Shown piece by piece: positions 12,760 through 46,357 of a DNA stretch of 64,000 nt (position 1 is the first letter of the stretch; each line of letters opens with the position of its first letter). The DNA is taken from contig CAINOB010000059.1 in the NCBI GenBank assembly GCA_903851365.1, positions 1 through 64,000 of the forward strand. Direction: 5' to 3'. The notes under the pieces were generated by a model, which made no database searches, had not been told where the DNA came from, and saw nothing but the letters and a program-made list of their open reading frames with translations. Source of the DNA: an uncultured Bacteroidota bacterium (GTDB lineage: Bacteria; Bacteroidota; Bacteroidia; Bacteroidales; UBA12481). Made by a program: the position numbers and the translations under genes.

Positions 12760-12828
12760 TACAAAAGTAATAAATTTATTACCTGCGACAAATTCTCAAA
12801 TAGTGCTGCCTGCTAAATGTCATGGTCA

Positions 12829-12859
12829 GGGACGGGGTCCCGTTTTTCAACGGGATGAC
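12829..12859 (-). repeat. Palindromic repeat (copy A)
   Basis: gggacggggtcccgtttttcaacgggatgac. Confidence 0.85.
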
Positions 12860-12957
12860 AAAGAAGGGTTTGGTACAGAGGACACTTCTGAACGATGCTT
12901 TTTGGTACTTCGGGGGGTTTTACTTTTCTTTGCGCCTAAATTTCAAAAACTTATCAC

Positions 12958-13440: not shown

Positions 13441-13484
13441 GATCGAAGAAGAAGATCGGTGGACGAAAGAAAGATCGGCAGAGT
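13441..13484 (+). repeat. Heptad-type array directly after the slyD stop
   Basis: gatcgaagaagaagatcggtggacgaaagaaagatcggcagag, same words as the other heptad arrays. Confidence 0.8.
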
Positions 13485-13485
13485 T

Positions 13486-13516
13486 GTCATCCCCGCGAAG
13501 GCGGGGACCCCGTCCC
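13486..13516 (+). repeat. Palindromic repeat (copy B)
   Basis: gtcatccccgcgaaggcggggaccccgtccc. Confidence 0.95.
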
Positions 13517-13538
13517 TAACAGCGACATTATCTTGAGG

Positions 13539-22209: not shown

Positions 22210-23091
22210 ATGAAAAAGATATTGTCCCTATTAGTTGTCTGCGTTGCAATGCTGTCGTGCACGGAGCAAGTTACAAAACCCGATTTTACGTTTGCGTTTT
22301 TGACCGACATTCACATTACGCCGGACAAGAGCGCGCCGATTGGATTTCAGCAGGCCATTGACCATGTGAACAGTTCGAAAGTCGATTTTGTGATTACGGG
22401 CGGCGACCAGGTCATGGATGCCCTCAATAAATCGCGCGCCGGGGCCGATTCGCTGTATCAGCTGTACAGCAGCCTGATGAAGGGTTTTAAGATGCCGGTT
22501 CACAATACCGTTGGCAATCATGAGCTTTTTGCATTTTACAATAAATCCATCGACACCCTGGATCCGGACTATGGCGAGGGGATGTTTCGACGCTACTTTG
22601 GTAATCCATGGCAATCATTTGATTACAGAGGATGGCATTTCATTCTGCTTAAATCGATTGAGCAAACGCCTGACCGTCATTACGAAGGCAAGATCAATCC
22701 GGTGCAAATGGAATGGCTGAGGCAGGATCTGGCAAAAGTGGATGATAAAACGCCTATCGTGGTATCAGTTCATATACCACTTATCACCGCATACAACCAA
22801 TGGCAGGAGGGCGGTCAGCAGGTTAATGGTGCCGGCTCAGTGATCACGAACGGCAAAGCAGTGATGGACCTGCTTCGGAAGAAAAACCTGAAGCTGGTAC
22901 TGCAGGGACATCAGCATTATTATGAAGATCTGTTTATGGATGGAGTTCATTTCATTACCGGCGGGGCTGTTTCTGCCGGATGGTGGGGCGGCGCAATCGG
23001 CAAAATGGAAGAAGGATATATGCTGATCAAGGTCACTGGCGATAAGATGGAGACGGAGTATGTTGATTATGGTTGGAATGCGAGGAAGTGA
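22210..23091 (+). CDS. Metallophosphoesterase lipoprotein
   Basis: MLSCTEQ lipobox; FLTDIHI, ITGGDQVMD, VGNHE, LQGHQHYY motifs. Confidence 0.9.
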   Translation: MKKILSLLVVCVAMLSCTEQVTKPDFTFAFLTDIHITPDKSAPIGFQQAIDHVNSSKVDFVITGGDQVMDALNKSRAGADSLYQLYSSLMKGFKMPVHNTVGNHELFAFYNKSIDTLDPDYGEGMFRRYFGNPWQSFDYRGWHFILLKSIEQTPDRHYEGKINPVQMEWLRQDLAKVDDKTPIVVSVHIPLITAYNQWQEGGQQVNGAGSVITNGKAVMDLLRKKNLKLVLQGHQHYYEDLFMDGVHFITGGAVSAGWWGGAIGKMEEGYMLIKVTGDKMETEYVDYGWNARK

Positions 23092-23200
23092 CGGGTGACG
23101 GGTGACTGGTGACCGAAGAATCGTGACTCGTGACGCGGGACGCGTGACACGGAGGACGAAGAAGAAGATCGATAGACGCAGGAAAGACCGAAAGACGAGA
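23089..23200 (+). repeat. Heptad tandem array beginning at the stop codon of the preceding gene
   Basis: tgacggg|tgacggg|tgactgg|tgaccga|agaatcg|tgactcg|tgacgcg|ggacgcg|tgacacg|gaggacg|aagaaga|agatcga|tagacgc...; TGA at 23089, 23096, 23103, 23110, 23124, 23131, 23145, all in 7-nt register. Confidence 0.95.
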
Positions 23201-23264
23201 TTCGATGGCCAATGTTGAATTTTGAAAATACAGAATGAAGTTTACCGAATCTGATCGAAGAAGT

Positions 23265-23295
23265 GTCATCCCGGCGAAGGCCGGGACCCCGTCCC
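23265..23295 (+). repeat. Palindromic repeat (copy C)
   Basis: gtcatcccggcgaaggccgggaccccgtccc. Confidence 0.95.
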
Positions 23296-23315
23296 TAACC
23301 ACGAAATCAAGCAGA

Positions 23316-25557: not shown

Positions 25558-25624
25558 CGGGTGACCGAAGAAGAAGACCGGTAGACGGAAGACGATAGAC
25601 GAAAGACAGTAGGCAGAAGAAAAT
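25541..25624 (+). repeat. Heptad tandem array overlapping the 3' end of the preceding CDS
   Basis: tgacagg|tgacagg|tgacggg|tgaccga|agaagaa|gaccggt|agacgga|agacgat|agacgaa|agacagt|aggcaga; stop TGA at 25555. Confidence 0.95.
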
Positions 25625-33331: not shown

Positions 33332-33859
33332 ATGGCAGAAATATTGGGTATTGGTTCAAGAATAAAACACCCTCAAATGGGTAAAGGAGTGATTGTTCAG
33401 GTGCGGTCGGACGCCTATGAAATCGGATTTATCGAGTATGGCGTAAAGCTGATTAAGCGGGATTATGAGGGTTTGGAAGTGCTTGAAGCGGTAGAAACAC
33501 CCGAGGATCTCACCTCTTTTGAAGATATGGAAAAAAGCCTGATCAGGGTACTCACCCGTTTCAGCGATATCCAGCAAACGGTTCAGATCGGCCAAAAATG
33601 GACCGGTGGAAAGATGGTTTTATATCCGGGTGATAAATCTTTAAAAGAGAAAGAAATTCCGATCGAGACATTTTTCCATAAAATAGTAATGATCCGCGAT
33701 CGCGTCAGGGTGATGGAACAGCGCATCAATGCCAGCAATCTGACCGATGAGGAAAAGGTTGACCTCGAGCAATATATCACCAGGATTTACGGCAGTCTTA
33801 CGACCTTCAATGTTTTATTCAAGAACAAGGAAGACCAGTTTACCGGGGCTTCTTCATAG
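33332..33859 (+). CDS. Conserved hypothetical protein with N-terminal SH3/Tudor-like segment
   Basis: GIGSRIKHPQMGKGVIVQVRSDAYEIGFIEYGVKLIKRDYEGLEVLE; complete ORF with coding-like composition. Confidence 0.6.
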   Translation: MAEILGIGSRIKHPQMGKGVIVQVRSDAYEIGFIEYGVKLIKRDYEGLEVLEAVETPEDLTSFEDMEKSLIRVLTRFSDIQQTVQIGQKWTGGKMVLYPGDKSLKEKEIPIETFFHKIVMIRDRVRVMEQRINASNLTDEEKVDLEQYITRIYGSLTTFNVLFKNKEDQFTGASS

Positions 33860-33870
33860 TTTCGCGGTTT

Positions 33871-33901
33871 GGGACGGGGTTCCCGCCTCCGCGGGAATGA
33901 C
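33871..33901 (-). repeat. Palindromic repeat (copy D)
   Basis: gggacggggttcccgcctccgcgggaatgac. Confidence 0.95.
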
Positions 33902-33921
33902 AACTCGCTGAGGGTAATTCC

Positions 33922-35611: not shown

Positions 35612-35656
35612 AGTTAGGTTATTAGGGTAAAAAGTTCCAGCTTAGATTCGTGGCTT

Positions 35657-35687
35657 GCGACGGGGTCCCGGCTTTCGCCGGGATGAC
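35657..35687 (-). repeat. Palindromic repeat (copy E)
   Basis: gcgacggggtcccggctttcgccgggatgac. Confidence 0.95.
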
Positions 35688-35706
35688 AATGCTCCGAGGG
35701 CCATTT

Positions 35707-35783
35707 CTGCCGACTGCCGACTGCCTACTGCAGACTCTACCGGTCTTCTTTTTCGGTCACCCGTCACTTATCACCCGTCACTG
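35707..35783 (-). repeat. Heptad array (11 units in continuous register) overlapping the stop of the S15 peptidase gene
   Basis: ctgccga|ctgccga|ctgccta|ctgcaga|ctctacc|ggtcttc|tttttcg|gtcaccc|gtcactt|atcaccc|gtcactg; stop at 35778-35780. Confidence 0.95.
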
Positions 35784-39656: not shown

Positions 39657-39761
39657 TCTTCCGTGTTTCGCGTTTCGTGTCACGTCTTCCGATATTCTTC
39701 TTCGTCTATCGATCTTTCTTTCGTCACCCGTCACTTGTCACCCGTCACTTGTCACCCGTCA
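39657..39761 (-). repeat. Heptad array (15 units in continuous register) spanning the gap between two same-strand genes
   Basis: tcttccg|tgtttcg|cgtttcg|tgtcacg|tcttccg|atattct|tcttcgt|ctatcga|tctttct|ttcgtca|cccgtca|cttgtca|cccgtca|cttgtca|cccgtca. Confidence 0.95.
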
Positions 39762-40656
39762 CATATTTCTGAAACTCCTCGGCAATTTTGGCGGTCTTAG
39801 TGTCGCCGCTATGAACCAGAACACGATACTTCATATGGAGCGCATCACCCTTTTTAAAGGTTGTTCCCGCGGTTTCATCGGCTGGCCAATACATGGGTGT
39901 CGGTGAAAAAAATCCATAATCGCGTGTAAACCAAGGTGACGGATACCATGGATTGGATGGATGCTGGAGAATTGCCATGCCTTCGGTTTTTCCGTTGCGA
40001 GTTCCATAGCAGTCCATCCAAGGTGATTTTTTCCCAAAGGTGCCATTATCCCCTGTCTCGCCACTGTTTCCTTCGGCATTCACAGCCGTACCACCATTCA
40101 CCACCGAAAGATCTGGCGCCATGCGGCCGCTGAAGAAAGAGTGGTTGGTCTTCTCGATTTTTACGTCCATGAGAATATCCAGGCGAATATCAAAATCGAT
40201 TTGATAGAGATCCTTGTAAGGAGCTGTGATCGTGATCAAACGAACATCACGGATAGGAGATTCAGCCCCGGGCCGGCTCCAGATACATTCGTTGGCAATC
40301 ACCACTGAGTCTTTGCCTGACTTCAGGATTTCAGCCCTGAGGGTGCGTATCCTGCCCCTGTCGATCCCTTCCTGCCAATAATTGCCGCCATTTACCCTGT
40401 CGCAGCCAAAAAATAGAGAACTATGGTGTGGATAGAGGCTGTTCCTCATCGAGGTAACACTAAAACCGGATGGTCCGTTTACCGGGAAGAAAAACGGATA
40501 CTTTTCGTCTTCCGAAAAGATGTATTGGGTAAAGAGGTTGTCCTTGATTGATACATCGATACGATTACCAACCTTTACTGCAGTTACCTGTGAATGAGAG
40601 GCAAAGCTGGTCAAAAGCAACATGCCTGAAAGGCAGGCAAGTGAACAAAGTTTCAT
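39745..40656 (-). CDS. DUF6807/PmoA-like exported protein
   Basis: SMRNSLYPHHSSLFFGCDRVNGGNYWQEG, HPSNPWYPSPWFTRDYGFFSPTPMYW; paralogous to 18808..19827. Confidence 0.8.
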   Translation of the reverse strand: MKLCSLACLSGMLLLTSFASHSQVTAVKVGNRIDVSIKDNLFTQYIFSEDEKYPFFFPVNGPSGFSVTSMRNSLYPHHSSLFFGCDRVNGGNYWQEGIDRGRIRTLRAEILKSGKDSVVIANECIWSRPGAESPIRDVRLITITAPYKDLYQIDFDIRLDILMDVKIEKTNHSFFSGRMAPDLSVVNGGTAVNAEGNSGETGDNGTFGKKSPWMDCYGTRNGKTEGMAILQHPSNPWYPSPWFTRDYGFFSPTPMYWPADETAGTTFKKGDALHMKYRVLVHSGDTKTAKIAEEFQKYVTGDK

Positions 40657-44973: not shown

Positions 44974-45429
44974 CTAGTTGAGATCTTTCATTACCCGGAG
45001 TGCGAGATCTACTTCGAAGCCCCGGCTCTGGGCAAATTTCAGGAGTTTCTGCTTTTTGTTGTGCGGATTGGATTCACCTTTCAGCTCCCTTGATTTTTTT
45101 TGGAGCAGTTCTTTAAGAGTTTCTGCATAGAGCTCCTCATCAATATCGGCCAGGACCTGATCGATAACCGAATGCCGAACCTTTTCCATGGAGAGCATAT
45201 AACGGATTTTGATGCGACCCCAATGATTCAGGCGAACTTTGTCCTTGACATAAGCATTTGCAAACCTTAAATCATCGATAAATTTCTCCTTAATAAGATG
45301 TTCAATTACGGTTTCGATATCCTCCGCTGAGGTATCCCAGTATTTAAGTTTCCCCCTGATATTAGCTTCACTGTATTCTGTTCTGGAGCACAGTTCCATA
45401 GCTCTGCTTAGTGCCTGTATTTTATCCAT
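44974..45429 (-). CDS. recX: Regulatory protein RecX
   Basis: AMELCSRTEYSEANIRGKLKYWDTSAEDIETVIEHLIKEKFIDDLRFANAYVKDKVRLNHWGRIKIRYML. Confidence 0.9.
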   Translation of the reverse strand: MDKIQALSRAMELCSRTEYSEANIRGKLKYWDTSAEDIETVIEHLIKEKFIDDLRFANAYVKDKVRLNHWGRIKIRYMLSMEKVRHSVIDQVLADIDEELYAETLKELLQKKSRELKGESNPHNKKQKLLKFAQSRGFEVDLALRVMKDLN

Positions 45430-46327
45430 GATATGCTCGAATCATACGGTCCTTGCCGTGAATATCTTTATGAAGTTCAACTTTGGAAAACCATTTGCGG
45501 AATATTTCTGCAGTCTCCTCACCTAAACGATCGTGAATCTCAACATATACCTGCCCGCCGGGATTAAGGTTTGATGCCGCAAATTCCGCTATAGCCTTAT
45601 AAAATAACAATGGGTTTGCGTCAGGAACAAACAGTGCCATTTCAGGCTCATACCTGATGACATGCAGATCCATCGACGTCATTTCGGATAAAGGCACATA
45701 GGGAGGGTTTGAGACGATGATATCAAAAGGTTTCGTGGTAAGGGACGGGGTCCCCGCCTCCGCGGGGATGACAAGGCTATCGAGGGTAAGGATGTTAAAG
45801 TAAGCTATTGATAGTTCGACCTTATTTATTCCGGCATTTTCTTTTGTGAGTTGGAGTACTGCCTCCGAAATATCTGAGGCAACCACTTCGGCATCCGGCA
45901 GGTGCTTTGCCAGGGCAATTGCAATTGCCCCGCTCCCGCATCCAATATCTAATATTCGCAACCTTTTCCCAACTGGCTCAACTTCACTTGTCATCCCGGC
46001 GAAAGTCGTAAGTATCCACTCAACGAGCTCTTCGGTTTCCCCTCTCGGAATCAGCACTCCTGATTTAACATTAATTTTTAGCCCATAAAATTCAGTCTCA
46101 CCAAGGATATACTGGATTGGCTCATGCATTTTCAACCGAACAATTATGTCTGAAAGATGACTTTCCTGATCTGGAGGAAGTTGATTCGCCTGATTCAGCC
46201 TAATCTGCACCCAGCTAAGCCCTGTTAGGGACTCCAGCACCAGCCGTCCAATCGAATCGATTTCGCGGACCGGATACAGACCGTTCAAAGCTTCAGCCAG
46301 GATTCTTTGGATATCCGAATATCTCAT
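45422..46327 (-). CDS. prmC: Peptide chain release factor N5-glutamine methyltransferase, carrying in-frame repeat insertions
   Basis: VLIPRGETEELVEWIL, ILDIGCGSGAIAIALAKHLPDAEVVASDIS, FDIIVSNPPYV. Confidence 0.95.
   Translation of the reverse strand: MRYSDIQRILAEALNGLYPVREIDSIGRLVLESLTGLSWVQIRLNQANQLPPDQESHLSDIIVRLKMHEPIQYILGETEFYGLKINVKSGVLIPRGETEELVEWILTTFAGMTSEVEPVGKRLRILDIGCGSGAIAIALAKHLPDAEVVASDISEAVLQLTKENAGINKVELSIAYFNILTLDSLVIPAEAGTPSLTTKPFDIIVSNPPYVPLSEMTSMDLHVIRYEPEMALFVPDANPLLFYKAIAEFAASNLNPGGQVYVEIHDRLGEETAEIFRKWFSKVELHKDIHGKDRMIRAYHG
45742..45772 (-). repeat. Palindromic repeat (copy F) inside prmC
   Basis: gggacggggtccccgcctccgcggggatgac, translated as VIPAEAGTPSL. Confidence 0.95.
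45990..46008 (+). repeat. Partial palindromic repeat (copy G) inside prmC, antisense
   Basis: gtcatcccggcgaaagtcg, read on the coding strand as TFAGMT. Confidence 0.75.
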
Positions 46328-46337
46328 CGCTTGATTC

Positions 46338-46357
46338 CCCCGGATTGAAATCCGGGG
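46338..46357. repeat. Hairpin CCCCGGAT-TGAA-ATCCGGGG
   Basis: Perfect 8-bp stem in the prmC/M3-peptidase gap. Confidence 0.85.

Follow-up and report, generated by a model that had tools for sequence, protein, structure and literature searches.

The prmC gene of this uncultured Bacteroidales bacterium carries a complete copy of a dispersed palindrome, which keeps the frame of the gene and is read in a frame of its own free of stop codons; the peptide that it encodes is absent from the relatives without the repeat family. We consider it very probable (about 0.85) that this palindrome is a mobile element resembling the CGTC-tagged REPs, restricted to one genus among the genomes searched and present in about 100 copies here, which inserted in prmC and was tolerated there. 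The case of prmC is no single oddity: it is one of at least 14 in-frame copies in the genome, complete elements being dispersed and residing in frame in many genes, within loops or linkers in the cases examined. Judged from the comparison of orthologues, at least one in-gene element appears to persist across species. What is new here is that the same loops of several species are filled by different repeats.

The covariance model of the palindrome (R1), built from 30 copies including that of prmC, detects 98 full-length copies in the 5.2-Mb genome (G000), i.e. the prmC copy and 97 others, and a strict pattern search gives 31 matches in the genome versus none with the reversed control, so that a chance origin of the match in prmC is excluded. 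The alignment of the copies delimits a conserved unit about 59 nt long, approximately CCCTCGNNAGAGT followed by TGTCATCCCCGCGAAGGCGGGGACCCCGTCCC and TNACCACGAAAT, whose conservation runs past the hairpin on both flanks; the proposal that the nucleotides flanking the prmC palindrome are shared with intergenic copies is thus borne out. By folding and pair counts the hairpin has a stem of 7 bp and a loop of 4 nt. An unpaired tag TGTC, invariant in the 30 aligned copies, stands at one end; the A that precedes the stem faces C or T, the T-A pair of the stem is present in 30/30 copies, and an unpaired CCC then a conserved GTCCC follow the stem. The stem covaries across the copies: 99.5% of cells are paired, and two-sided changes (13, against 2.3 in shuffles) back four of the seven pairs. 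Although the stem covaries, a function of the prmC stretch as RNA was rejected, its folding being no stronger than that of shuffles (z -0.5). The window, i.e. the whole stretch of 64,000 nucleotides analysed, also holds five intergenic copies (Table 1). Other short intergenic repeat families, dispersed or tandem (CGAAGAAGAAGATCGG, GTGACGGGTGAC), lie in the window at 13444-13482, 23157-23195, 25566-25604, 23088-23120, 35749-35782 and 39716-39763.

The prmC product contains the Pfam domains PrmC_N and methyltransferase, and its N-terminal domain, SAM motif and active-site NPPY place it in the PrmC/HemK family; the best match among solved structures is 2b3t, the E. coli PrmC complexed with RF1 (TM 0.83). 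The open reading frame is uninterrupted, as the original prediction held, and the complete palindrome is found where it had been placed, the limits given by model R1 being slightly wider than 45740-45792. This element, at what we call site 2, scores 77 bits (E 4e-11, model R1, whole genome, contig C59) and differs from the commonest core by one mismatch in 32. It encodes PrmC residues 180-200, LTLDSLVIPAEAGTPSLTTKP; read in the prmC frame it gives TLDSLVIPAEAGTPSLTTKP at residues 181-200, and FDIIVSNPPYV comes directly after. A second copy, partial and reversed, occupies site 1, about 200 bp upstream of site 2 within prmC, and encodes FAGMTS near residues 109-114; a 15-nt match was obtained in 0/500 codon shuffles. 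This partial copy had been missed earlier, like at least 13 other in-frame copies in the genome. The palindrome CCCCCGGATTGAAATCCGGGG at 46337-46357, just upstream of the prmC start, is exact over 20 nt beside prmC in G006 and has no second copy in the window.

Table 1. Features of the prmC region, intergenic copies in the window, and other genes of the genome carrying in-frame copies
Feature	Position	Strand	Basis
prmC, release factor glutamine N5-methyltransferase, 301 aa, intact	45422..46327	-	ORF; Pfam; structural match
Complete 59-nt REP-like element, prmC site 2	45728..45786	- (forward relative to prmC)	model R1
Hairpin of site 2 element: 7-bp stem, 4-nt loop, unpaired TGTC + A before	45751..45768	-	fold, pair counts
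Partial reversed element, prmC site 1	45988..46005	+	18-nt exact match to other copies
Intergenic palindrome copy	12815..12873	-	model R1
Intergenic palindrome copy	13472..13530	+	model R1
Intergenic palindrome copy	23251..23309	+	model R1
Intergenic palindrome copy	33857..33915	-	model R1
Intergenic palindrome copy	35643..35701	-	model R1
IspG, two in-frame copies, opposite orientation	L042:544-1830 = G000 C1:30921-32207		
GltX, one loop with a full copy, another with a degenerate reversed piece	L185:1291-3033 (G000 C126)		
M1 peptidase, in-frame copies	L153:1100-3319		
E2 acyltransferase linker, in-frame copies	L172:590-1915		
FeoA-FeoB linker, in-frame copy	L179:2-1822		
GH20 hexosaminidase, in-frame copy	L151:1630-4320		
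PQQ-type propeller protein, in-frame copies	L145:726-2696		
Unnamed protein, in-frame copy	L193:1033-2133		

Peptides of the element are found in 3 of 110 Bacteroidota PrmCs (G000, G003 and G004), all from repeat-bearing genomes of the same genus, and no orthologue from a repeat-free genome has these residues among the 110. Model R1 detects 17 to 109 copies of the element in six of the eight genomes of the genus, one copy in G005 and none in G002, nor any in the 33 genomes searched outside the genus. The copy in prmC, its frame and the relatives devoid of the peptide together support the insertion in frame that had been proposed by analogy with the Rickettsia palindromic elements (RPEs). Its size is another matter. 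The loop from DIL to FDxI was measured on 77 PrmC proteins, with a pattern that ran too far in a few of them; its median length is 10 residues. It is 20 residues long in G000 and 10 in the family members outside the genus; compared with the usual loop the net gain at site 2 is thus about 10-12 residues, and not the 17-19 originally given. As this gain is smaller than the number of residues encoded by the element, the insertion was not clean or was trimmed later; the element seems to have taken the place of part of the ancestral loop. Moreover the PrmC of G002 lacks the element peptide and yet has a loop of 19 residues, so that the loop may already have been longer in the genus before the insertion, which makes the exact net gain uncertain.

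AlphaFold (53 sequences) predicts that the PrmC of G000 keeps the fold of the family, with a mean pLDDT of 91.9 and values mostly above 90 outside the inserts. Residues 111-120 and 181-200 have a pLDDT of about 63 and no regular structure bar a short turn; mapping on the structure, which had been suggested as a check, thus places both inserts in low-confidence loops. Strand 124-128, the strand of the SAM motif, follows site 1, and strand 201-206, with NPPY at its end, follows site 2; in the methyltransferase sheet these are strands b1 and b4. In the class I methyltransferase fold, these two strands are neighbours, with the SAM and glutamine sites at the opposite strand ends. The PrmC bearing the insert has probably retained its methylation of RF1 and RF2, and the insert most likely has no function of its own.

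With a genome assembled in 130 contigs, and since repeats are a cause of breaks in assemblies, one may ask if the repeat wrongly joined two fragments. However, both halves belong to one PrmC in one frame, and four other assemblies of the genus have in-frame expansions of the PrmC loops at the same places; such an artefact is hardly credible. It is also very improbable that prmC is a decaying gene in this lineage, its insertions marking a lost constraint. PrmC was indeed not found in G001, G005 and G007, three of the eight genomes of the genus, where the profile search gave other methyltransferases only. On the other hand the frame is intact in the five species having PrmC, with invariant NPPY and SAM motif, the codon usage is normal on either side of the insert, the flanks are 74-79% identical to those of G006, and gltX and ispG display the same pattern. 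Besides, the three genomes without PrmC are fragmented assemblies (160-960 contigs), and in G001 and G006 a contig ends within ispG, at the repeat or beside it; perhaps the absence of PrmC is due to repeats breaking these assemblies.

By a strict codon-usage test applied on both sides, 14 of the 98 copies of G000 lie in frame inside coding ORFs: those of ispG (2), prmC, gltX, feoB, a 2-oxoacid dehydrogenase E2 acyltransferase (2), a GH20 hexosaminidase, an M1 peptidase (3), a PQQ-type propeller protein (2) and an unnamed protein. A LanC-like protein is an additional case, beyond the 14. Thirteen of the 14 copies are read in one or other of the two frames in which the whole consensus is open, and those of FeoB (FeoA-FeoB linker) and E2 fall in linkers between Pfam domains. 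As about 0.93 of the window is coding, 14 of 98 is very few (p ~1e-83): the element is strongly avoided in genes, or purged from them, and this scarcity could reflect a preference of insertion as well as selection. Six same-strand candidates for genes broken by the element were examined and none is clear. Neighbouring in-gene copies, paired within prmC, ispG, gltX, the M1 peptidase and E2 of G000, are in opposite orientation in six of seven pairs (p = 0.06), these pairs being few and not independent. In IspG, the element of loop 1 is at the same place and in the same frame in G000, G001 and G004, hence it seems to have been inherited across species. In GltX, the degenerate reversed piece is a weak match (E 0.077). 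Three other genes deserve mention. In an RND-type periplasmic adaptor (L051:1458-2582) the element is just ahead of the lipoprotein signal sequence and a later start codon is possible; a glycosidase-like protein (L002:1447-3030) and a glycosyltransferase (L040:1954-3345) have peptides resembling the translation of other repeat families (SPLPGIREGSGEG, SPTSPSLFEGGVGVG).

The filling of the PrmC loops differs between species of the genus. The PrmC of G003 has the element at both sites, in a short and reversed form at site 1, and in full at site 2, there in a different reading frame that gives CHPREGGDLVP. In that of G004, a GGCTCAAGG-type tandem repeat fills site 1 and two successive copies of the element fill site 2; in that of G006, each site is filled by tandem repeats, those of one site being the reverse complement of those of the other over 25 nt. 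With its 90 extra residues, the PrmC of G006 is predicted by AlphaFold to have the same core, the site 1 insert extending a helix and the site 2 insert being disordered. The same loops of GltX that the element occupies in G000 contain CTCAAGG-type repeats in G006, G004 and G007 (86, 80 and 73% identical); in G005, a genome with a single copy of the element, the GltX loop occupied in G000 is free of repeats. Outside the genus, a distant Bacteroidales MAG (L107, JAOZQN010000194; PrmC at 120-1172) has an unrelated palindrome, CACCCNCTCACTTNAAGTGAGNGGGTG, at both PrmC sites; it is dispersed in its own genome, with 15 matches versus none with the reversed control. L065, where both PrmC sites hold simple repeats, is another possible case. 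These different repeats in the PrmC and GltX loops of the genus, as well as the palindrome of L107, had escaped the first inspection. As a general test of the DNA that Bacteroidota PrmC loops share with their surroundings gave no difference from control stretches beyond the genus and L107, we claim the recurrence for the named cases only.

Such recurrence might be taken as a sign that the insert is adaptive, i.e. that it tunes PrmC through its stability, the binding of a partner or the speed of translation via an mRNA hairpin, and is kept by selection: related species fill the same loops again and again, and the IspG loop 1 element is kept in at least three species. Nevertheless the filling is a REP in one species and a CCTTGAG-type tandem repeat or something else in its sister species, and its length and reading frame vary likewise; the inserts are predicted to be disordered, and the RNA folding, as indicated above, is no stronger than that of shuffles. 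In addition, the guanylate kinase of R. conorii bearing an RPE was active with a changed affinity for its substrate, which is read as neutral or slightly detrimental (PMC2229807). We find an adaptive insert unlikely.

The preferred reading, a tolerated mobile palindrome, would involve insertion at many sites by a machinery acting in trans. Most insertions in genes would be lethal or harmful and be lost, while the in-frame and stop-free copies that fall in loops far from the active site would be tolerated and could be inherited for long. A dedicated transposase was sought among the Y1_Tnp genes of the genome and of the genus, and rejected: none of the 14 Y1_Tnp matches in the eight genomes is directly flanked by the element, and the one copy lying about 580 nt from such a match is at a distance expected by chance.

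The element shares with the CGTC-tagged REPs, described by Di Nocera et al. 2013 (PMC3733652) in bacteria including Bacteroidetes, an unpaired tag (here TGTC, which replaces CGTC in many of their repeats), a GC-rich stem and a 4-nt loop, within the 4-5 nt of these REPs. Like them it occurs in Bacteroidetes, is mostly intergenic with some copies in frame in genes, and has no flanking transposase, the CGTC REPs having no linked transposase (PMC3733652). It differs by its 7-bp stem (the first A being unpaired) instead of 8-9 bp, perhaps by its tail, CCC where CCA is usual, and by its conserved flanks that extend the unit to about 59 nt. As the published definition requires one or two more pairs in the stem, we name the element CGTC-REP-like and do not file it as a member. 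The element also lacks the GTAG tag and flanking RAYT gene of the RAYT-associated REPs, having TGTC and no flanking Y1_Tnp gene. RPEs (Ogata et al. 2000, as related in PMC2229807 and PMC10969869) are likewise selfish palindromes found in frame in many unrelated conserved genes, whose host proteins are presumed to work; according to these accounts they occur in Rickettsia and the majority measure 105-150 bp, whereas the element is shorter and belongs to a Bacteroidales genus. Judged from the reading frames, the element would be translated within conserved genes as RPEs are; its hosts are uncultured Bacteroidales and not Rickettsia, with no copy in the genomes searched outside the genus. RPE-6 and RPE-4 have themselves been equated with CGTC families (PMC3733652). 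In Rickettsia, a guanylate kinase that carries an RPE is translated, and it is active with an altered substrate affinity (Abergel et al. 2006, as summarized in PMC2229807).

Translated palindromes within genes have been reported in Rickettsia and in several other species (PMC3733652, PMC10969869). The original prediction knew of no description for this element, which is too strong for the class, as intragenic CGTC REPs have been listed in several species (PMC3733652); for this bacterial group our search, mostly of open-access articles, found no paper on translated intragenic palindromes. The nearest precedent for a repeated filling is recB of Xanthomonas, where different REPs stand at about the same position in two species (PMC3733652). 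Here the recurrence concerns at least two enzymes, PrmC and GltX, and several loops and species, with repeats of unrelated kinds, tandem ones included.

The insertion of palindromes in frame is best known from Rickettsia and is often ascribed to reduced, weakly selected genomes. Here it takes place in large genomes (5.2 Mb), outside Proteobacteria, in usually essential enzymes and in several species per gene. The system lets one ask which loops accept foreign sequence, at what rate this sequence turns over and at what cost to the enzyme. It is also a warning for annotation: VIPAKAGTP, CHPREGGDP or DGVPAFAGMT within a protein can be a translated REP. Selfish DNA seems to rewrite repeatedly the loops of working proteins, and the chances appear evenly balanced that, in this lineage, any dispersed repeat active in a species keeps replacing the sequence of the permissive loops of its essential enzymes. 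If so, sister species with enzymes 71-86% identical would share nothing in these loops, and new segments of protein would continually arise from selfish DNA at the same fixed positions.
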